Shown here piece after piece: positions 588-35,511 of a stretch of DNA of 38,091 bases (position 1 is its first letter; each line of letters begins with the position of its first letter). This DNA comes from a virus: IMG/VR virus record IMGVR_UViG_3300022591_000027, positions 1 to 38,091 of that record; one strand, written 5' to 3'. The notes under the pieces are model-generated. The model was not told the DNA's origin. It ran no database searches and saw nothing but the letters and a program-made list of their open reading frames with translations. The translations under genes were made by a program, and so were the position numbers.

Positions 588-626
588 CGGAGGGGCTTAG
601 TGAGTTGGGCCTCTCCGTTTTTTTTT
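588..626 (+). terminator. Rightward intrinsic terminator next to the integrase stop
   Basis: A 9-bp stem with one G-U pair (CGGAGGGGC at 588-596, GCCTCTCCG at 609-617) and a 12-nt loop is followed by nine T (618-626), which overlap the integrase stop codon. It points right although both flanking genes are leftward. It would stop rightward readthrough past the first terminator, protecting int from antisense transcription. Confidence 0.7.
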
Positions 627-1605
627 ATTCTTTTCTTTTCCTAGCAAAAGCCTGCTGAATGTCTTCTGCGGCGGCGATTCCTGTGGCATTTTCGATATAC
701 CCGAACGTCGTTTTCGTGTCCGCATGCCTCAGTTGCGTGGCAATTTGTGATAGCGGCATCCCGCAATCGTTCATCTCGGTGGCTAACCCACGCCGAAAGC
801 TGTGGCCCGAATACTGCGCACCAAACATTCGCTTGATAGCCTGATTAAATGAGTTGGCCGCTAAATGAACGGAACCGAGCTTGCCTTTTGCTGCGGGTCG
901 AATCAATGGGCCCTCCGTAATTCCTGTGCGATTGCGCCACTCCTCTATCGTCCGTACAGGGCACAAGCGGCCATCCGCGCTATTCGAATTGCGCGCTACG
1001 TGCAACGTGACCGGCTGATCAGACGTTTTGGATTGTAACAAAACAATTTCAATATTTCCACAAGGAAGCGCGCGCACATGCTCGGATTTGAGCGAAACCA
1101 CTTCACAGCGCCGAAATCCCGCATAGAATGTCAGCAAAAACATAGCGCGATCCCGGAGTCCGAGCAGCGTGTCCGGCAAGCTTGCGCACACCTTTTCCAG
1201 GAGCTCGAGGTCGATTTCGGGCGCCTTTCTCACAACTCTTGCGTAGCTTTTGTGAAATGCCTCCAACGCCATTGAAATCGTGTTCTGATTGCCCTCAATG
1301 TTTACTTCGTGCCATAAATGCTTGAATTTGATTGCCGAAACGATGCTATTTACCAGCGAGTAGCTCCGCTGAATCGGGATCGTGCTCAGGTAATTCACAA
1401 CCACATTCGATTGCGTAGGCAGCACAGGGCACCCATTGCGCACACACCATTCGGCGAAATCCCGCCACAGGCTGCTATACACGCGAGCAGTTTCAGGGGC
1501 AAGGACCCTCTGCCGGAGCTGCTCGGCTTCGGGGGACAACGGGATTTGCACGGCATCTAATTGCGCTTCGAAAGGCATCATTTGAGAAGATTCGAACGTG
1601 ATCAC
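625..1605 (-). CDS. int: Tyrosine recombinase / phage integrase
   Basis: A 326-aa protein of the lambda-integrase family, which catalyses site-specific recombination between phage and host attachment sites. The N-terminal part (about 25-115) resembles a SAM-like core-binding domain. The catalytic domain carries Arg165 (GFRRCE), Lys193 (SKT), His268/Arg271 (GHSFRRG), His294 (LRHAD) and the nucleophile Tyr303 (FGYIE), so the full set is present. The start is GTG at 1605 with AAGGAGAG seven bases upstream; an internal ATG-ATG at residues 9-10 lacks a comparable ribosome site. It is the penultimate gene of the leftward block. No excisionase is recognisable, though one of the small genes nearby could be one. 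Confidence 0.93.
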   Translation of the reverse strand: MITFESSQMMPFEAQLDAVQIPLSPEAEQLRQRVLAPETARVYSSLWRDFAEWCVRNGCPVLPTQSNVVVNYLSTIPIQRSYSLVNSIVSAIKFKHLWHEVNIEGNQNTISMALEAFHKSYARVVRKAPEIDLELLEKVCASLPDTLLGLRDRAMFLLTFYAGFRRCEVVSLKSEHVRALPCGNIEIVLLQSKTSDQPVTLHVARNSNSADGRLCPVRTIEEWRNRTGITEGPLIRPAAKGKLGSVHLAANSFNQAIKRMFGAQYSGHSFRRGLATEMNDCGMPLSQIATQLRHADTKTTFGYIENATGIAAAEDIQQAFARKRKE

Positions 1606-5000: not shown

Positions 5001-5642
5001 TTATTGTTTCTTAGATTGATGATTTCGTTTTTCGAACTCGGTCTGGGCGATTTTATATACCTGCTCTTTTGGTAGGGAGGCATCGATAACGAAGATGCGC
5101 TCCGGGTTTTGCTTGGCGATTTCGAGGTAGCCTTCTCGAACCGTGGTGTAAAAACGCAGGTATGTCTCGTGTCTGTTTATTAGGTCGACGACGTCCCACA
5201 TGTTTTCAAATGCTGGTATTGGCTGGGGTTTCCTCTGCATCGCCAATGTTGGTTCGATATCCAAAAGGAACGTCAAGTCTGGAACCGAGCCTTCCGAAAT
5301 TACTCCGCACAGGCCTTTGAGCCAATCAATATCTAAACCCCTTCCATAGCCTTGGTATGCAAGAGTGCTATCGGTATATCGATCCATAAAAGTATGCTGC
5401 GTTGGATATCTGATGGGCCCCTGACGCTGTGATTGTAGACCTAGAAAGAAAAATGCTTCTGCCATGGGAGACAGGAACCCTGCTTCTGAATGATTCAGAA
5501 TACACTCTATCAGGTCACAAGAAGCTCCTATAAAGGTATCCATCTGGTAAAAGGACTGCTCAGTTGCAGTGCAATACATACTCATCTTCTTTACGAGAGA
5601 AGTTTTTCCCGAGCCATCAATGCCTTCAAACGTTATGAACAT
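5001..5642 (-). CDS. tmk: Thymidylate kinase (dTMP kinase)
   Basis: A 213-aa protein that phosphorylates dTMP to dTDP in DNA precursor synthesis, of the usual length for bacterial enzymes. Visible motifs: P-loop GIDGSGKT (7-14), the DRY motif at 87-89 with the following helix (YTDSTLAYQGYGRG) that binds thymidine monophosphate, and the LDIEP strand near the lid. The start overlaps the preceding small gene by 10 bp, and the ribosome site is weak (GAAAGAAAA), so translation is probably coupled. A phage-owned tmk suggests supply of dTTP independent of the host. Confidence 0.92.
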   Translation of the reverse strand: MFITFEGIDGSGKTSLVKKMSMYCTATEQSFYQMDTFIGASCDLIECILNHSEAGFLSPMAEAFFFLGLQSQRQGPIRYPTQHTFMDRYTDSTLAYQGYGRGLDIDWLKGLCGVISEGSVPDLTFLLDIEPTLAMQRKPQPIPAFENMWDVVDLINRHETYLRFYTTVREGYLEIAKQNPERIFVIDASLPKEQVYKIAQTEFEKRNHQSKKQ

Positions 5643-7417: not shown

Positions 7418-7508
7418 ATTCCGCCTCGTTTTTTTTAGATTGGCAGATCCGGGACATTGACTCAATAAATTTCTTCGCGTATAGCTGAAAATCTCTAGGA
7501 GGATCCAT
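7389..7508 (-). CDS. Possible tiny protein, 39 aa, starting opposite terL
   Basis: The ATG lies in the same CATG as the terL start, on the other strand. The peptide looks protein-like (amphipathic helix around QLYAKKFIESM, then three Cys), but no ribosome site is visible and the terL promoter lies inside it. It may be spurious, or expressed from a transcript starting inside terL. Confidence 0.3.
   Translation of the reverse strand: MDPPRDFQLYAKKFIESMSRICQSKKNEAEYEATGCNCG
7457..7485 (+). promoter_or_regulatory. Rightward promoter of terL
   Basis: TTGACT, a 17-bp spacer and TATAGC lie just upstream of the AGGAGG (7497-7502) of terL. The expected start point near 7492 leaves a very short leader. 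The match is 5/6 at -35 and 4/6 at -10. Confidence 0.5.
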
Positions 7509-8844
7509 GTCAAAAGAAAAAATCAAGTTGCCACACGGGTTTGAGCCACGTCCATACCAACTGAACATCTTGCAGGCTCTGGACGAGGGTGTGAAAAACG
7601 CCTGTTGGGTGGTGCACCGTCGCGGAGGCAAAGACACGACTTTATGGAACCACATGATAAAACAGGCCTACATGGTGCCTGGGGTGTATTATTACCTGTT
7701 GCCAACCTTCGCCCAGGCCAAGAGGGTACTGTGGGACGGTATGACCAATGATGGCAGGCGGTTTATCGATTACATTCCGAAAAGCATCATTGACGGGCAT
7801 TGGAACAATACCGAGATGAAGGTCTGGATCAACGGAGCATACGGGAAAAGCCTTATTCAGCTCTCTGGCGGCGATTCTTACGATAACCTTATGGGTACCA
7901 ACCCTCGCGGCGTCGTGTTCTCAGAATGGTCCCTAACGGATCCTCAGGCCTACGAGTTCATGAAGCCGATTTTGCTGGCGAACGGCGGCTGGTGCGCGTT
8001 CATTTACACACCTCGCGGGGAGAATCACGGATGGGATTTGGCCGAGATCGCACGACGCAACCCGAGTGAATGGTTTTTCGAAGTTCTTACCGTCGAGGAT
8101 ACAGGCGTGATGACTCCGGAGCAGATCGAGTCCGAACGCCGCAAAGGCATGAGCGAGGACCTAATTCAGCAGGAGTACTTTTGCTCCTTCAAAAGGGGTC
8201 AGGAGGGCAGTTACTACGGCAGGCAGATGGACGAGATTCGCAAGAAGGGCCAGCTTTGCAGTGTGCCGTATGATTCGGCGGTCCCTGTCCGAACCTCCTG
8301 GGACCTAGGCATAGGCGATAGTACAGCCATCGTTTGGTATCAGGAGGTCGGCAGAGAGTTGCATTTGATTAATTATTACGAAAATTCGGGGGAGGGTCTT
8401 GCTCATTACGCGCGCATTCTTGACGAATACCGCCTGAGAACGGGTTGTACGTACGATTTGCACATAGCGCCGCACGATATCTCTGCACGAGAGCTGAGTA
8501 CCGGTCTGAGTCGACTGGAGGCAGCTCGGCGCATAGGGATTCCTTTTCGCGTGGCACCTAAACTGTCCCTCGAGTCGGGTATCGAGGCTGTCCGGGCCAT
8601 TCTCCCAAGGTGCTGGTTTGATGAAACGAACGCTGCGGGGTTGATAAAGGCGCTTCAGAACTATCGCAAGGAGTACAACGAAAAGCACCGGGTTTACTCG
8701 GATAGGCCGAAGCACGACTTTTCGTCTCACGGTTCAGATGCGTTTCGGATGATGGCGGTTGCGCACAGCAATTTTCGCAGTGATGGCGGGGTGGACGATT
8801 CGCAGTATGAGCGCATGAAGGGCCTGTGGGGTTGGAAGACCTAG
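7507..8844 (+). CDS. terL: Terminase large subunit (packaging ATPase/nuclease)
   Basis: A 445-aa protein that drives DNA into the prohead and cuts the concatemer. The ATPase half has the deviant Walker A HRRGGKDT (37-44), a Walker B-like strand GVVFSEW (135-141, Glu140) and motif TPRG (168-171). The nuclease half has acidic residues at Asp266 (SWDLGIGD), Asp324 (PHD) and the C-terminal HDFSSHGSDAFR block (Asp404, Asp411). AGGAGG lies five bases before the ATG. Length and motif spacing suit the family. It is separated from both terS and the portal gene by islands of leftward genes. Confidence 0.93.
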   Translation: MSKEKIKLPHGFEPRPYQLNILQALDEGVKNACWVVHRRGGKDTTLWNHMIKQAYMVPGVYYYLLPTFAQAKRVLWDGMTNDGRRFIDYIPKSIIDGHWNNTEMKVWINGAYGKSLIQLSGGDSYDNLMGTNPRGVVFSEWSLTDPQAYEFMKPILLANGGWCAFIYTPRGENHGWDLAEIARRNPSEWFFEVLTVEDTGVMTPEQIESERRKGMSEDLIQQEYFCSFKRGQEGSYYGRQMDEIRKKGQLCSVPYDSAVPVRTSWDLGIGDSTAIVWYQEVGRELHLINYYENSGEGLAHYARILDEYRLRTGCTYDLHIAPHDISARELSTGLSRLEAARRIGIPFRVAPKLSLESGIEAVRAILPRCWFDETNAAGLIKALQNYRKEYNEKHRVYSDRPKHDFSSHGSDAFRMMAVAHSNFRSDGGVDDSQYERMKGLWGWKT

Positions 8845-9401: not shown

Positions 9402-10946
9402 TTATTCGTTCGCGTTATGAAGCGATGCACTCGCTATTTTTTGCCTCAACGCCTCCATCTCACGGGCCATTTCAATTTTAGCTGTCCTTTCTGAGGATTC
9501 GATTTCCAGGATTTTCGCTTGAACCATTTCAACAAAATGCGTTTGAGAGGCCTTGACGATGAACTTTAGCTCTCCTTCCCTTTTTAGCCTGGTCCTGCCC
9601 TTGTACAGAGCAAATGAATCGTTTTCCACAGCAACGAATAGGCCTGCCAGGTATGTTCCGTGCATGTTTTCGATTTCGTGTAGATATTCCCGGTTCTCTG
9701 CGGGTATCTCCGGTTCGGTTTGAATGGGTTCTGGCGCTTTCACAACCGGTGGCATTCTGTCCCTGCGTTTTTTTAGGGATTGCTCAACCGATAGCCGATA
9801 AGTCACGAGTTCAATGAATTTTTTGTCTTCTATTGAAATGTAGTTTCCTCCGAATTCCACCCCGTCGTTGTACGCGTTTCCCCCGAGCTCCTCGATTTCT
9901 CGGCAATGCTGGGCTAGGTAGGCCTGGTTTTCCTCGATGCGGATGCGTTTGGGCTTTGTGTAATACTCTCCCTCGTCGTTTAGGAGCCACTTCAGGAAGC
10001 TGACGTGATTGCGAATAGGGTTGTCGCTGCCCCTGCAACGTATTTCATTCCTCAATTTTGTGATATTTTCGTGAATATCTTCGCTGGTGTGTTCGGCGCA
10101 GAGGCGGATTTTCCACCCTGCGGTGACGTTGACGTCCTGAAATTTTTTGTTCATTGCGATGGCCTCGGCATAGGTGGCATTTTCGGGGATTAGGTCAAGT
10201 AGGCCTCGGTCCGGATTCGACAAGGCCTTAAAAGCGACGTTTAAGGCATCTCTGGTCGATTTTTGGGGGTCGAGGCATATCAAGGTAGCGTAGAACATCA
10301 CTCGTTGAAAATAGGGGTGTTTGCGATCGTTTTTGAGAGATTCGGCTTTTGGCCCCGTGAAAAGTCGTAGGATCGGCTCAAAATCAGCAGCAGCATCGGA
10401 AAAAAGACAGACCTTTTTTTCTGTTTCGGGGTTTGAAGGCTCAATTTTTTGAAGGGGTCGCGTGCTACGCGGAAGCGAGTAAAAAGGTTTGTTTCTCTCT
10501 CTGTGTTGTTTGCCTTGTTGCGTAAGCAACAAGGTATTATTATGTGCACCCTCCGATTCAAATATTTCCCCAAGAGAAAAAAAGCTGGCTCCGCTACCTG
10601 ACTCCGCTAGCTGGCTCCGCGGTTTTTGAGCTGACTCCGCGGTTTTTGAGCTGACTCCGCTACCTGACTCCGCGGTCCTAAATTGCGGTTTTGATGTGGT
10701 ATACCGGATTCCGATTCTGCGCTGTTTTTCGCCACAATCAATGGTAATTTGTGTTTTGAAAATGATTCCTAGCTGGATGCCCTTTTTGAGGAGTCGAGCA
10801 CTTTTGTGTTCGCCAAATCCGCTATTTTCTCTGAATTGCTGGAAAGAGACCGTGTCCGAAGCGCCGAACCCGGTCATGATGGTCCAGTATTCCCTTTCGG
10901 AGGAAAGTCGGTCTATAGGCTGTGTGGGGGCGATTGTAGAATTCAT
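9402..10946 (-). CDS. Putative replication initiator with an internal origin (lambda O-like organisation)
   Basis: A 514-aa protein. Residues 25-85 fit a winged-helix DNA-binding domain (TMTGFGASDTVSFQQF, then GEHKSARLLKKGIQLGII and a basic wing), as in phage and plasmid initiators. Residues 92-121 are a low-complexity linker encoded by six iterons. The middle (about 190-400) is helical and unknown; the end is a charged helix. Start ATG at 10946 with AGGA upstream. The initiator role is inferred from the winged helix plus the iteron cluster, as in lambda O. No catalytic primase or helicase motif is visible. It is the only large gene in the leftward island between terL and portal. Confidence 0.55.
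   Translation of the reverse strand: MNSTIAPTQPIDRLSSEREYWTIMTGFGASDTVSFQQFRENSGFGEHKSARLLKKGIQLGIIFKTQITIDCGEKQRRIGIRYTTSKPQFRTAESGSGVSSKTAESAQKPRSQLAESGSGASFFSLGEIFESEGAHNNTLLLTQQGKQHRERNKPFYSLPRSTRPLQKIEPSNPETEKKVCLFSDAAADFEPILRLFTGPKAESLKNDRKHPYFQRVMFYATLICLDPQKSTRDALNVAFKALSNPDRGLLDLIPENATYAEAIAMNKKFQDVNVTAGWKIRLCAEHTSEDIHENITKLRNEIRCRGSDNPIRNHVSFLKWLLNDEGEYYTKPKRIRIEENQAYLAQHCREIEELGGNAYNDGVEFGGNYISIEDKKFIELVTYRLSVEQSLKKRRDRMPPVVKAPEPIQTEPEIPAENREYLHEIENMHGTYLAGLFVAVENDSFALYKGRTRLKREGELKFIVKASQTHFVEMVQAKILEIESSERTAKIEMAREMEALRQKIASASLHNANE
10513..10534. repeat. Perfect inverted repeat inside the initiator gene
   Basis: CCTTGTTGC and GCAACAAGG surround a 4-nt centre: a 22-bp palindrome with 9-bp arms. 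It lies about 50 bp from the iterons, across an AT-rich stretch (10535-10584). A protein-coding constraint would not produce this. Confidence 0.7.
10585..10673. repeat. Six iterons within the initiator gene (candidate origin of replication)
   Basis: CTGRCTCCGC (GCGGAGYCAG on the gene strand) starts at 10585, 10598, 10611, 10631, 10651 and 10664. The spacings of 13, 13, 20, 20 and 13 bp are not multiples of three, so the same DNA word is read in different codon phases. This points to selection on DNA, as for initiator-binding iterons. An AT-rich stretch follows on the side of the gene's 3' end. Confidence 0.7.
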
Positions 10947-11182
10947 AAGGCGTCCTGGTTAAAAGAATTTCTGTTATTGCCAGAAATGCCCCAGACACGA
11001 TATGCTCGAAGATACGGTATGAATGTATCGTGTTTGAAGCTTAAGGTATGGTGGTGACATCGTATCTGAAGCTTTCTGAAGCTTAAGGTATGATGGTGGC
11101 ATCGTATCCGAAGCTGAAATCCTGTGTCCGAAGCTAAAGGCCTTGTGTCTGAAGCTGTTGGCTTCTTATAACAACGGAGGGC
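10947..11182. repeat. Repeat region upstream of the initiator gene
   Basis: GTRTYYGAAGCT occurs at 11030, 11062, 11104, 11124 and 11145, with a partial copy at 11073. Two 40-bp copies (11034-11073 and 11076-11115) differ at only four places. No gene is seen here. The position in front of the initiator gene suggests operators for its control or a second set of binding sites. I see no convincing promoter. Confidence 0.6.
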
Positions 11183-11410
11183 TCATACACGTTTTTCTTG
11201 CATATATGGTGTCTGGGTGGAGGCTCGCTGTACTTTTCTGGGTGACAGGCGGGCCTCTTCATTTTCAGCCATTATGGCTATCCTATCAGCCCTCGCGTTT
11301 CCCTTCCAGCTCTTTTCAGTTGCCTCCTCTAAAAATAATATCTTGATTGTTTCCATCGTCTTTGCATAATGCCGAGTTAGCCCCGCATACCGCGGTGTAG
11401 AGGGATTCAT
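11183..11410 (-). CDS. Hypothetical protein, 75 aa, starting opposite portal
   Basis: From residue 10 on the composition is that of a real protein: charged and helical (TMETIKILFLEEATEKSW, then a basic Arg/Lys tail). The first ATG at 11410 shares a CATG with the portal start on the other strand; the internal ATG at 11356 would give 57 aa. Neither start has a good ribosome site. The portal promoter lies within it. No family recognised. It precedes the initiator gene on the same strand. Confidence 0.45.
   Translation of the reverse strand: MNPSTPRYAGLTRHYAKTMETIKILFLEEATEKSWKGNARADRIAIMAENEEARLSPRKVQRASTQTPYMQEKRV
11343..11370 (+). promoter_or_regulatory. Rightward promoter of the structural operon
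   Basis: TTGATT, a 16-bp spacer and CATAAT (5/6 match) lie 39 bp before the portal start. It would be the first promoter of the long rightward block that runs to 32577, which has no other clear promoter. Confidence 0.45.
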
Positions 11411-13376
11411 GCCGACAGACTACGACGTTGTGAGCGACTTTTCGCAGGACTACAACAGGGCTTGGATGCTCCTAAACCCCTATTACTCAGCGGCTTACGA
11501 AGACGTAGGATGCTATTTGGGGCAGCAATGGACTTTAGAGCAGCAAAAATACCTGAACGAGGAGCGGCGCAATTCGTATACGTTTAACAAGGTGCGGAAG
11601 ACCATCGACACCACCTCCGGGTACCACAAAGCCAATCAGCAGGCGTCTGTGGTGGTCCCCTACGAGAACTCAAGCGAAGAAACCGCCGATCAGCTTACCG
11701 AACTCCTCCGACACGCCATGCAGCCAAACGGATATGCGGCAGACAGTAAAGCATTCCATGGAAGCCTTGTCTCTGGTATTAACTGGGTGTCTCCTTGGAT
11801 CGACTACCGTAATGATTATGTTAACGGTAGGATTAGCTTTCACGTCGATAATTGGAATGATGTTATCTTCGATCCTTTCTTTACTCGGTTTGATTTAGAG
11901 GATTGCACGTTTATTGCGAGAAGAAAATACCTAAGCAAAGACGTTATCAAGTCATTGGTTCCCGGGTGTGAAAGGGAAATCAATGCAATGGGATATGGAA
12001 ATCGGGACGAAAAGTTTTCTTTTGAGCCGTATGCGCGTCAATGGGGGCTGCAAGCGCTTTTGGCTTACAACGAATATTGGAAGCAGCGATATAAAAAAGG
12101 CTGGCTGCTTGTAGACAAAACAACCGGTGAACAAAAGCCTTGGAAGGGAGACCAAAATCGCCTTAAGATAATGCAGCAATTCTTCCCGAATCTTGCTGTC
12201 ATTGAGGGATACTACAAAACAATTGAATACAACATAATTGTCGAAAACAGGCTGTTGTATAGTGGCGAAGATCCTTGGGGCATTGGCGAATATCCTTTTG
12301 TGCCATACATTGCGGTTTGGGATACAAGCTACGATTTGTTTCAATGGAAAATACAGAGCTTGGTTCGCATATTGAAAGATCCGCAAACCGAATATAATAT
12401 GCGGAAAAGCAAATTGCTGGACATCATGGACTCGCAAATAGGGAGTGGCTGGAAAGCGAAAAGCGGCGCAGTTTCGAACCCCAAGGCCCTGTTCCAGAGT
12501 GGCCAAGGCAAGGTGATCTTTTTCAATCCAGGCTTCGAGCTAGGAGATGCCGAACGCATTGACCCGCCGAACATTCCCGAGAGCCTATTTGCGCTTCAGG
12601 AGTCATTCGCAAAAGATATCACGGACATGGTCGACCTGACGCAGATGGCGTCTGAGGTGCCTGACCGCATGAGTGCCGCCCTGTTTCTTCAGAGGCAGGC
12701 AAGCGCAGTTCTGGGTTTGGGGCCTATTTTCGACAACCAAAAGACGAGCCAGCGACTGCTAAGCAAAAAAGTCCTGAAAATGATTCAGAACTACAGTTTG
12801 GATAAGGTCCGTCGCATTATCAAGCAGGAGCCGACCGCAGAATTCCATTCGGGGACATTTCTGGAATACGACGTGGCACTTACCGAGACTGTGATGAGCA
12901 GCACGCAGAAACAGATGTCGTTCCTGCAGAAATTAGGCCTGAAAGCGGCTGGCGTCAACGTTTCGGATAAACTGATCTTCGAGGATGCGCCGTTCCCTGT
13001 GAGCAAGAGTTTGCGTGCCGAACTCGAGCAAGAGGCGGAAGCAGCCAAGGCGGCTCAGGCTCAGGAAGCGGCCGACAAGCAACAAATCAACCAGTTCTTG
13101 CAAGCAAAATCTTTCAGCGACATATCGCTTGGGGAGGAGAGGTTGAGCAAGATCAAATACGACGCGGCATTGTCCGAGGAGCGCCTAGCAGCGGCCGCCG
13201 AGGAACGCGAACGAGCTGTGCTTGATAGAATTCGCGCCATAAAAGAGCTCGAGGGCATGGACATTGAACACGCGCATAAAATCCTGGAGATAATTCGCGG
13301 TATTGAGGAGGAGCAGAGGCTGAAATCCGCCGACACTGTGGTTCCGCAACCGGCAGTAACTGGAAAAACGAAATGA
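11409..13376 (+). CDS. Portal protein, P22-like
   Basis: A 655-aa protein expected to form the dodecameric DNA entry vertex. It shows the family layout: an N-terminal segment with FSQDYNRAWMLLNPYY and an EQQKYL region, a central core with the typical IRILK/LLDIMDSQIGSG region, TDMVDLTQMASEVPDRMSAA, and a long C-terminal charged helix (about 555-645) that corresponds to the barrel of P22-type portals. GAGGG lies shortly before the ATG. It opens the structural operon and its stop overlaps the next start as ATGA. Confidence 0.88.
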   Translation: MPTDYDVVSDFSQDYNRAWMLLNPYYSAAYEDVGCYLGQQWTLEQQKYLNEERRNSYTFNKVRKTIDTTSGYHKANQQASVVVPYENSSEETADQLTELLRHAMQPNGYAADSKAFHGSLVSGINWVSPWIDYRNDYVNGRISFHVDNWNDVIFDPFFTRFDLEDCTFIARRKYLSKDVIKSLVPGCEREINAMGYGNRDEKFSFEPYARQWGLQALLAYNEYWKQRYKKGWLLVDKTTGEQKPWKGDQNRLKIMQQFFPNLAVIEGYYKTIEYNIIVENRLLYSGEDPWGIGEYPFVPYIAVWDTSYDLFQWKIQSLVRILKDPQTEYNMRKSKLLDIMDSQIGSGWKAKSGAVSNPKALFQSGQGKVIFFNPGFELGDAERIDPPNIPESLFALQESFAKDITDMVDLTQMASEVPDRMSAALFLQRQASAVLGLGPIFDNQKTSQRLLSKKVLKMIQNYSLDKVRRIIKQEPTAEFHSGTFLEYDVALTETVMSSTQKQMSFLQKLGLKAAGVNVSDKLIFEDAPFPVSKSLRAELEQEAEAAKAAQAQEAADKQQINQFLQAKSFSDISLGEERLSKIKYDAALSEERLAAAAEERERAVLDRIRAIKELEGMDIEHAHKILEIIRGIEEEQRLKSADTVVPQPAVTGKTK

Positions 13377-32577: not shown

Positions 32578-32705
32578 TTCGCCAGCGTCTTTTCCTCTTC
32601 GATCGCGAACTCTATCGTATCAGCTACAGCCCTTTCTGCACGGAAAATGTTTGGTATCGAGCACCCCGTTAGAACGGCTGCCAGTACAAGCATAAATAAT
32701 TTCAT
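32574..32705 (-). CDS. Small lipoprotein, 43 aa
   Basis: The sequence begins with a signal peptide and lipobox (MKLFMLVLAAVLTGC, Cys15), followed by 28 polar residues ending in an acidic helix. It should be exported and lipid-anchored. A GAGG/GGTGG-type ribosome site lies upstream and the start overlaps the ERF stop (ATGA). Possible roles are superinfection exclusion or an outer-membrane spanin of the Rz1 kind; the lack of prolines and of a partner makes the second doubtful. Confidence 0.65.
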   Translation of the reverse strand: MKLFMLVLAAVLTGCSIPNIFRAERAVADTIEFAIEEEKTLAN

Positions 32706-33316
32706 TCTTCCACCCTCTTTTTATCGGTCCATTTTTTGAACGCTATCATGAATTCTTCGAACCGTTTTACGGCCTCTCGCTTTACTTCCTCGACGTCTGT
32801 GCGCATGATCTCGGCGCTATGAGCAAGGAAGGCGTTCATTTTATCCCGCTCCCTTTTATTCATAGTCTTCGGTAGCTGCAATTCGAATTCTAGGCACTGT
32901 GCGGGCTCGTAGGCGGCTTTCGCGTCCTCGTCGGGGTCCTCCCCTGTCTCAAGCGCAAACGTCTTCAGGAGGGCGTATTTGTACGCGTACGACACGGCCT
33001 TTCCGGGTCCTTTATCCCCTGCATCAACGCCATACCCATACCAAATCGACGAGAAGCAATCGTTTGGGTCATCGGCATTTTTGAAAACGACGCATAGTTT
33101 TACTACGGTTCGGTTTCCCTCCTGTCGCAGCTCATCAATCGTGGGAATTACGACGATGCCGCTTTTCACCAATCGCGGGTGAACTGCGGCGGTTACCTGG
33201 TCGTGGCTGGCAAAACGGTACTGCCCGTTTACGGTTTTGTCGCTTTTCTGGACGTAATCCAGATCCTGCATGATCTCAATAATCTTTTGATATATGTTTT
33301 TAGGTTTTGAGTCCAC
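32702..33316 (-). CDS. erf: ERF-family single-strand annealing protein
   Basis: 204 aa from the GTG at 33316, which has AGGGGA before it; an upstream ATG at 33361 has no ribosome site and would overlap the exonuclease more. The ERF core is clear: NIYQKIIEIMQDLDYVQKS, YRFASHDQVTAAVHPRL, then the hallmark GPGKAVSYAYKYALLKTF and ETGEDPD. These proteins anneal complementary strands in phage recombination. The exonuclease gene upstream overlaps it by 17 bp, forming a Red-like pair. Confidence 0.88.
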   Translation of the reverse strand: MDSKPKNIYQKIIEIMQDLDYVQKSDKTVNGQYRFASHDQVTAAVHPRLVKSGIVVIPTIDELRQEGNRTVVKLCVVFKNADDPNDCFSSIWYGYGVDAGDKGPGKAVSYAYKYALLKTFALETGEDPDEDAKAAYEPAQCLEFELQLPKTMNKRERDKMNAFLAHSAEIMRTDVEEVKREAVKRFEEFMIAFKKWTDKKRVEE

Positions 33317-33926
33317 TTTTCCCCTTTCGTTTGTTGAAGAATTTGTATAACACCAATGCATGGTGAAACATGTTCACAAGCCGCCTGAGAGACATCGTCT
33401 TTTTCTTAACATCGCATCTGGTATTATCGAACGTGTGCACGCGGGCCTCTGAACCGTCTTTGTTCAGGTAAACCAGAGCCGCAGCCTGCACGGGCATATC
33501 GTGCATCTTGAGCAGCTGGCTATATGCGGCAACCTGAATCGGGTGCGAGCTGACTGGCTGAGAGGTGGTTTTGAGGTCCACGACAATCCGCCGCCCGTCG
33601 ACGTGCTCGATTAGTAGGTCGATTTGTCCGGTATATCCGAAATGCGAATCCTCCTCCTCCTCCCCTTCAGGCTCCTCTGCGGTAAATCGGCGCTCCACCA
33701 GGATCACGTCGCGAACATTAGCGGCCATCCATGCCCTAAAGCAATCGACATAACCGCGGAACTCCGCCGGGACCATGTTTTCGGGCATCCATTCACCGGA
33801 TGCGATCGCCGAACAGAACGCGTGCACCGCTGTACCGCGTGCGGCCGCCCTTTGCAGGGTGTCTTGTGGAACGTGTTGGTAGCCTGTAAACGGTTTGAGA
33901 ATCTCTGTGACGCGTGCATATTCCAT
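33300..33926 (-). CDS. PD-(D/E)XK exonuclease (RecB/Cas4-like recombination nuclease)
   Basis: 208 aa. Motifs in order: GTAVHAFC with His35, Glu78 in LVERRF, GYTGQIDLL with Asp103, IVVDLKTT with Asp117 and Lys119, then QVAAYSQLL with Gln131 and Tyr135. This is the RecB-type nuclease order. No iron-sulphur Cys set as in Cas4 is seen. Working with the ERF protein, it would resect double-strand ends so that strands can be annealed. It is the first gene of a three-gene leftward operon. Confidence 0.85.
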   Translation of the reverse strand: MEYARVTEILKPFTGYQHVPQDTLQRAAARGTAVHAFCSAIASGEWMPENMVPAEFRGYVDCFRAWMAANVRDVILVERRFTAEEPEGEEEEDSHFGYTGQIDLLIEHVDGRRIVVDLKTTSQPVSSHPIQVAAYSQLLKMHDMPVQAAALVYLNKDGSEARVHTFDNTRCDVKKKTMSLRRLVNMFHHALVLYKFFNKRKGKSGLKT

Positions 33927-33996
33927 ATTCGAAAAAATCTCTTTGTGATAACTTAAATTTCAAGGTACCATACACGTAAAATTTTAGGTATAGGAA
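33927..33996. promoter_or_regulatory. Divergent control region between recombination and replication operons
   Basis: The 70-bp AT-rich gap must serve both directions. A rightward candidate is TTGTGA (33943-33948), 17-bp spacer, TACCAT (33966-33971), 4/6 matches each. For the leftward side TTGAAA with a 17-bp spacer is possible but weak. The two following rightward genes have similar leaders with TTTTAGG. Confidence 0.35.
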
Positions 33997-34311
33997 TTGG
34001 CAGAAAAAGCAGAACCTCCAGTCAAGCGCGGTCCTGGCCGTCCTCGCGTGCCTAAACCTCCCAAGCGCCCTCCAGGAAGGCCCAGGCTGCCCAATGCGAT
34101 GATCAAAATCAATCTGTATATCGAGAAACAGGAGTACGAGCGCCTCAAGGAAATCGCCCGGGTGGAGTCGATCGCTCATGGGAAACCGATCGGAGCGCTT
34201 TTCCTGATTCGAGAGGCCGTGAATTATATTTATCGGGACGAAATGCGGCTCAGGGACATGTTCCGGCGATACCGAACAAGATCCGTTCGGCGTTTGATGA
34301 ATTTACGTTGA
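33997..34311 (+). CDS. AT-hook DNA-binding protein, 104 aa
   Basis: The start is probably TTG at 33997 with AGGT/AGGA upstream. The N-terminal 35 residues contain two AT-hook-like cores, GPGRPRVP and PPGRPRLP, set in Pro/Lys-rich sequence. The rest resembles a ribbon-helix-helix: a strand (IKINLYIEKQEYERL), then a helix (IGALFLIREAVNYIYRD), and a very basic end. As first gene of the rightward replication operon it may be a regulator or nucleoid-type protein. Confidence 0.6.
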   Translation: MAEKAEPPVKRGPGRPRVPKPPKRPPGRPRLPNAMIKINLYIEKQEYERLKEIARVESIAHGKPIGALFLIREAVNYIYRDEMRLRDMFRRYRTRSVRRLMNLR

Positions 34312-34339
34312 ACAGATATATTAAAAGTTTTAGGATACC

Positions 34340-34654
34340 ATGAGAATCACATACGACCGAGAGACGAGGCAGTTTGTAGGCATCGACGAGCGGGTTTTGG
34401 CGAATCTGTCGCTCTTGTTTCCGGGGGTCAACATACAGCGCGAGCTCGTAAAAATGGGTATGTGGCTGGATGATTCTCCGAAAGCAAAGAAGCATCGTGG
34501 GACACTGTGTTTTATCAACGCCTGGTTGCGCCGAATCCGCGTGACTGAGCCCGTCGCTCCCGCTGTGGAATCGAACCTGTCCCGTGAACGATATGTCGAG
34601 GATTTATGGAAGGGCCGAAGATCAATCCTAGAAATGAACACACACCATTCCTGA
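34340..34654 (+). CDS. Helicase-loader / initiator C-domain-like protein, 104 aa
   Basis: AGGAT lies before the ATG. Residues 28-65 follow a pattern common at the ends of phage replication-initiator proteins: FPGVNIQRELVKMGMWL, then SPKAKKHRGTLCFINAWLRR. That region is thought to contact the helicase. Here it is a stand-alone gene, overlapping the helicase gene by 49 bp, while the DNA-binding initiator candidate is encoded elsewhere. The role is inferred from this pattern and neighbourhood. Confidence 0.55.
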   Translation: MRITYDRETRQFVGIDERVLANLSLLFPGVNIQRELVKMGMWLDDSPKAKKHRGTLCFINAWLRRIRVTEPVAPAVESNLSRERYVEDLWKGRRSILEMNTHHS

Positions 34655-35511
34655 GGGCCTCAAGAGAGCTTTACACAGATTATATCGTTCCTGTGGCAGA
34701 GCTACCGCAGAGTTACCGCGACGAAATCGATCCTGGCTATACGACGGGGTGGTCGGATCTCGACCGCCTGTTGATGGGAATTCGGCTTGGAGAGGTCACC
34801 GTAATTTCGGCAGACACAGGCAGCGGAAAAACGACATTCGCAACACAGCTGCTGTGTAATGTTGCCATGCAGGGGGTGGCCGTGTGGATCAATAGCTGGG
34901 AAATGGCCCCATCTAGCATCGTTCGCAAAATGGCGTCGCTCGTCCTGCGCAAAAACATGAAATTGGAACGTTTCACCGTCGAGGATAATTCCGCATTTGA
35001 TGCCTGGTGCCTGAGATATAGCGTGTTCCTGAATCCTGTGACGATTGGATTGAGCCTGGAACAGCTAGCTGAGCAGCTCAAAAAGGCTGCCGAGTTGGGC
35101 ATAAAAGTTGTGCTTTTAGATCACCTGGATTATCTCGTGCACTCACGGCGAGAAAAGCATTATGAGGACGTCGATGCCACGGTGAAAGCCTTGCATGAGA
35201 TGGCGTTTCTCTTGAAAATGCATCTTATCCTCATATGCCACCCTAAACAATCCGCGACAGGACAGGAAGAAATCGGCATTCATTCTCTCAAAGGAAGCAG
35301 CTCGATCAAACAATATGCGGACAACATCATTGTGCTGCACAGGTGTTCGCGCACAGATTCGCAGGCACACTCGAGCAAAACGAAAGTTCGCGTGGTGAAG
35401 AATCGCGCTTTAGGCTCCGAAGGCACCACTTACCTTTTCTATGAGGCGTGGGACGGATACACACAAATAAAGGAGATTCATGCGCGTTGCAGTAAAGAAC
35501 AGCAAGACTGA
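34606..35511 (+). CDS. DnaB-like replicative helicase (RecA-fold domain only)
   Basis: 301 aa. Walker A is ADTGSGKTT (69-77), then Glu99 in NSWEM, Walker B VVLLDHLDYL (168-177), the CHPKQ sensor (His212) and a GSSSIKQYADNIIVLHR segment, all of the DnaB C-terminal family. The N-terminal DnaB domain is missing, so it corresponds to a minimal phage helicase. GAGG lies four bases before the ATG. It would unwind DNA at the phage fork. Confidence 0.85.
   Translation: MEGPKINPRNEHTPFLRASRELYTDYIVPVAELPQSYRDEIDPGYTTGWSDLDRLLMGIRLGEVTVISADTGSGKTTFATQLLCNVAMQGVAVWINSWEMAPSSIVRKMASLVLRKNMKLERFTVEDNSAFDAWCLRYSVFLNPVTIGLSLEQLAEQLKKAAELGIKVVLLDHLDYLVHSRREKHYEDVDATVKALHEMAFLLKMHLILICHPKQSATGQEEIGIHSLKGSSSIKQYADNIIVLHRCSRTDSQAHSSKTKVRVVKNRALGSEGTTYLFYEAWDGYTQIKEIHARCSKEQQD

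Follow-up and report, generated by a model that had tools for sequence, protein, structure and literature searches.

Where does this phage start to copy its genome, and could the start site lie within the gene of the very protein that acts on it? The question is raised by a 514-aa open reading frame (ORF) with a conspicuous repeat array in its interior, found in a viral stretch of 38,091 nt (the whole of which is referred to here as the window). An earlier note had proposed that this array is the phage origin and the otherwise unrecognised 514-aa protein its initiator. The position of the gene and the arrays found in related phages speak for this proposal, while homology does not, as the protein is without match to initiator families. 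Taken as a whole, we consider it likely (probability roughly 0.78) that a tailed, integrase-carrying phage has its theta-replication origin in this region, and that the gene harbouring it encodes the phage's own initiator. The features concerned are:

9402 to 10946, minus strand: ORF of the 514-aa orphan protein, without family match, placed where related phages have their initiator gene; proposed replication initiator containing the origin
10662 to 10946, minus strand: first 95 codons, proposed to encode a DNA-binding domain of the winged-helix type, weakly indicated by low-confidence models and by insignificant profile and fold matches
10664 to 10673, minus strand: iteron 1, exact match to GCGGAGTCAG
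10651 to 10660, minus strand: iteron 2, exact match to GCGGAGTCAG
10631 to 10640, minus strand: iteron 3, exact match to GCGGAGTCAG
10611 to 10620, minus strand: iteron 4, exact match to GCGGAGCCAG
10598 to 10607, minus strand: iteron 5, exact match to GCGGAGTCAG
10585 to 10594, minus strand: iteron 6, exact match to GCGGAGCCAG
10535 to 10584, no strand: AT-rich tract, within the 2.1% of 50-mers in the window that are least stable; proposed DNA unwinding element
10513 to 10534, no strand: inverted repeat with 9-bp perfect arms and an asymmetric 4-nt GTAA loop

The six copies of CTGRCTCCGC reported in the earlier note are exact (10585, 10598, 10611, 10631, 10651 and 10664), and the remainder of the window contains no match free of mismatches. 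On the coding (minus) strand they read GCGGAGYCAG, start at gene nucleotides 274, 287, 307, 327, 340 and 353 (span 274-362) and are spaced by 13, 20, 20, 13 and 13 bp. The 10-bp core has a single variable position, whereas the spacers differ and are far less well kept. An internal multi-copy array of this kind, here of six exact decamers, is expected of an origin inside an initiator gene, and it exceeds what shuffling of the gene produces, where the best 10-mer cluster had at most three copies. The copies fall in all three codon phases (0, 1, 0, 2, 0, 1, translated as AES, SGVS, AES, PRSQ, AES and SGAS), from which it had been argued that protein selection cannot explain them. This argument holds in part but is weaker than it was put: a 33-bp (11-codon) super-period takes in five of the six iterons, so the pattern is partly also an 11-residue repeat of the protein (AESGSGVSSKT/AESAQKPRSQL/AESGSGASFFS). 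The super-period favours an explanation in which the repeats, functionless at the DNA level, are tandem duplications within a stretch coding for a disordered linker; linkers tolerate duplications, and the period is divisible by three in half of the arrays of related phages. We regard this as very unlikely given the conservation of the core over the spacers in three codon phases, the periods of eight linker arrays in relatives, which are not multiples of three and would break the frame, and the behaviour of the array period among relatives described below.

Next to the iterons, the AT-rich stretch noticed earlier was borne out at 10535-10584, and an AT-rich tract beside the array is again a trait of origins within initiator genes; a still less stable 50-mer exists in the same gene, near 9797. 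The 'perfect 22-bp palindrome' that was said to follow is an inverted repeat, its arms perfect over 9 bp, but owing to its asymmetric loop not a strict palindrome. No other such stem occurs in the window; shuffled windows yield zero to three, so only its position is notable. Hairpins after the AT-rich tract have no consistent counterpart among the relatives, and therefore we do not count this one with confidence as a part of the origin. On the plus strand it scores like a terminator, a reading that was rejected as such matches are no commoner than in shuffles. GC skew, which had been put forward as a check, does not mark the site: it does not turn at 10.6 kb and is uninformative.

The 514-aa protein is as unrecognised, and as unlike lambda O, as had been supposed. 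It has no meaningful match in Pfam, PHROG or NCBIfam, O-like and Rep_O profiles included, so that the suggested profile search, once run, gave no significant family match. Relatives were likewise absent from phage records, IMG/VR, contigs of species genomes, PDB sequences and 234 Chlamydiota genomes, the one other copy found being an identical partial one on contig 3300023311_000016; three matches in Chlamydiota (E 0.004-0.04) were short and unconvincing. The protein is also missing from 28 related phage records, whose loci are mostly 66-76% identical in portal and terminase, and neither tblastn nor hhalign gave a significant match to its syntenic counterparts there. In the profile comparison the sole N-terminal piece that aligned to these counterparts, insignificantly, falls on their helix-plus-wing region. 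Single-sequence AlphaFold2 models had a mean pLDDT of 35 for the whole protein and 41 for residues 1-95, and at this low confidence (pLDDT 35-41) the order of parts is a winged-helix-like start, an unstructured region at about 71-178 that includes the iterons, and then a helical part; a Foldseek search with the model gave no significant match. These models weakly suggest that the N terminus might be a winged helix.

What speaks most clearly about the role of the gene is its surroundings. Related loci were fetched by portal (34) and terminase (5) queries, some of them on the same contigs, and their portal and terminase proteins are mostly 66-76% identical to those of the window. The two genes border the slot in which the 514-aa gene lies:

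7507 to 8844, plus strand: terminase large subunit (phrog_2), left border of the slot
11409 to 13376, plus strand: P22-type portal protein (PF16510, phrog_156), right border of the slot

As in the window, the gap between terminase and portal holds an ORF on the opposite strand in 22 related phages, there of 285-371 aa. Most of these 22 ORFs match PHROG families of replication initiation, DNA-binding, O-like or DnaD-like helicase loader proteins, 13 of them phrog_270 (replication initiation protein), and for ten there is a low-scoring match to a helix-turn-helix Pfam model. In at least five related phages an IstB/DnaC-type AAA+ protein, the helicase loader type, comes next after the slot ORF. 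The initiator-type matches together with these AAA+ proteins identify the space between terminase and portal as a replication-initiation slot, and the 514-aa gene has the position and strand of the relatives' initiators (PHROG 270/428/4707 group). One relative (L007, 2887-7753) differs from the other phages in that its terminase and a winged-helix-initiator-like ORF are flipped with respect to the portal.

From this position we infer that the 514-aa protein is the initiator. It might instead be a DNA-binding regulator or another non-replicative protein, the repeats being its operator or the sites of an unrelated protein and the true initiator being encoded elsewhere; the protein does lack homology to initiators and its C-terminal half is unclassified. 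This explanation is hardly probable, however, since the gene occupies the slot of the relatives' initiators, a mid-gene array would be unusual for an operator, and no other initiator candidate was seen among the window proteins scanned.

Repeat arrays inside the gene are strongly enriched in this slot. Most slot genes carry an array of about two to three copies shortly after the winged-helix part (Tandem Repeats Finder, TRF). At a TRF score of at least 50, 17 of 23 slot genes with the window, and 16 of 22 without it, contain an array, compared to 1 of 156 controls, for which other ORFs of these loci (200-520 aa) were taken; the corresponding Fisher p of ~5e-17 (without the window) overstates certainty because related genomes are not independent. 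Among the 16 is L019, where the array lies near the 3' end of the slot gene. Most arrays of the relatives have a period of 15 or 22/23 bp, and 17 and 30 bp were seen once each. AT content exceeds that of the gene in the 60 nt after the arrays (p = 0.0008), the arrays themselves being less AT-rich; the upstream flank is AT-rich too, so that AT-richness is not one-sided. A scan of viral contigs for three clustered copies of the iteron pattern led to L059 and L060, which were rejected as carrying an unrelated low-complexity array.

Judged from their sequences, the slot initiators of the relatives are modular, and the period of the array follows the type of winged helix and not that of the C terminus. 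It was common to 21 of 24 pairs with related winged helices versus 2 of 12 pairs related only C-terminally, in a version where positions and periods were partly chosen by eye (among others for L011, L026 and L016, the last set to 11). When the domain cuts were fixed and only TRF output was used, the period was shared by 17 of 29 winged-helix pairs versus 1 of 11 C-terminal pairs (permutation p = 0.004 and 0.99, respectively). If, as predicted, the winged helix binds the arrays, such tracking is expected, and as the array adjoins the part coding for the winged helix, shared descent of the DNA contributes to the match in period.

A second array of repeats lies between the 514-aa gene and the portal gene:

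11030 to 11156, minus strand: intergenic AGCTTCNGAYAC array preceding the 514-aa gene, possibly a rival origin, an auxiliary site or an operator

Its 12-mers (four exact, one with one mismatch and one with two, spaced by ~20, 21 and 42 bp) are unrelated to the internal iterons, and one near copy is located inside the gene at 10852-10863. With so many copies directly upstream of the gene, this array could be the working origin or the main binding region, leaving the internal repeats an auxiliary role in copy control or autoregulation. We think this improbable, albeit less so than the two alternatives above: only a few relatives (L004, L013, L017 and L033) have a clear array upstream, against a majority with an internal one, and the array of the window would also fit the operator of an early promoter. 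It is thus read, from its sequence and place, as a putative operator or auxiliary site. The array of L004 consists of six 10-bp tandem copies of GACTCCCCCG in the gap between initiator and portal, upstream of the initiator gene (~1660-1720 of the locus).

For the internal origin, the following course of initiation can be envisaged. The winged helix of the 514-aa protein would bind the six iterons, which directly follow the codons for the winged helix and fall in the stretch encoding the flexible linker, and several bound copies would open the adjacent AT-rich tract. The helical C-terminal part might then recruit the replicative helicase, either that of the host or, more probably, the one encoded by the phage itself:

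34606 to 35511, plus strand: DnaB-like replicative helicase (phrog_239, phrog_19, phrog_243), possible partner of the initiator

The 301-aa DnaB-like helicase is encoded together with an Erf-like annealing protein and an exonuclease at 32702-35511, far from the initiator. At the left end of the window, a tyrosine-recombinase-type integrase (625-1605, minus strand) points to a temperate phage, and a thymidylate kinase gene (PF02223) is located at 5001-5642 on the minus strand.

Several known systems resemble this arrangement. In lambda, iterons followed by an AT-rich tract lie in the middle of the initiator gene O, and in a Stx phage whose origin has six iterons the O protein is 13 residues longer, hence the number of iterons can change within the gene (PMC3349717, PMC7466680). 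This central placement of iterons and AT-rich tract is what is proposed for the 514-aa gene. However, lambda iterons are inverted repeats of 18-19 bp bound by O dimers (PMC5043065), whereas those of the window are 10-bp cores without clear dyad at 13/20-bp spacing, and lambda O-like profiles have no detectable similarity to the 514-aa protein. The oriL of SPP1 has direct repeats and an AT-rich unwinding element inside gene 38, which encodes the origin-binding protein, and the phage has a DnaB-type helicase (PMC6316719); both traits recur here, with a putative origin-binding gene. SPP1 additionally possesses a second origin of like organisation, oriR, and a separate loader, gp39 (PMC6316719), while the window is without a second copy of the internal iterons and no AAA+ loader was recognised beside the 514-aa gene. 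Iteron plasmids of the R6K, P1, RK2 and pSC101 type share direct, non-symmetric repeats near an AT-rich region. Their iterons are generally helix-phased and accompanied by DnaA sites (PMC5043065), in contrast to those of the window, which lie inside a gene and at 13/20-bp spacing are not helix-phased. The slot initiators of the relatives (L003-L034) have the same position and strand and an array that is usually internal and after the winged helix. Their proteins are shorter and bear no recognisable resemblance in sequence to the 514-aa protein, and their arrays have fewer copies, longer periods and other repeat sequences. The locus would best be read as an origin-in-initiator design of the lambda/SPP1 kind whose initiator is an orphan and whose repeats are its own.

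A further-reaching scenario is conceivable, though we find it doubtful when all its parts are taken jointly. The 514-aa protein might found a new family of initiators without kinship to O, DnaD-like or plasmid Rep proteins; as one self-contained cassette with its embedded origin, it might have replaced the resident initiator, in a slot reserved for such cassettes. The origin-in-gene design would then have been reached more than once and travel as a unit, and recombination within the group would exchange two halves, one made up of winged helix and iterons, the other of the C terminus that recruits the helicase.

As to the host, the sole close relative of the portal among 84,980 species genomes was found on a 5.3-kb contig of a Chlamydiales metagenome-assembled genome (L042). 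Beside the portal, which is 70% identical, this contig has a winged-helix-initiator-like gene in the same slot (1-2734), resembling by eye, from its translation, the initiators of L028 and L032. Portal homologues were present in 10 of 234 genomes of Chlamydiota. This group of tailed phages probably has its host in Chlamydiota, the relatives of Chlamydia; we hold this with moderate confidence because the L042 contig is short and Chlamydiota was the only phylum searched in this way.

The locus would add to the lambda/SPP1-type design a case in which an orphan initiator comes with repeats of its own. The related phages amount to a natural series of domain swaps, and as the iteron period follows the DNA-binding half of the initiator in this series, it allows a direct test of how initiator and origin co-evolve. 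And if the host does belong to Chlamydiota, where genetic tools are few, the compact cassette of initiator plus origin could serve as a replicon.
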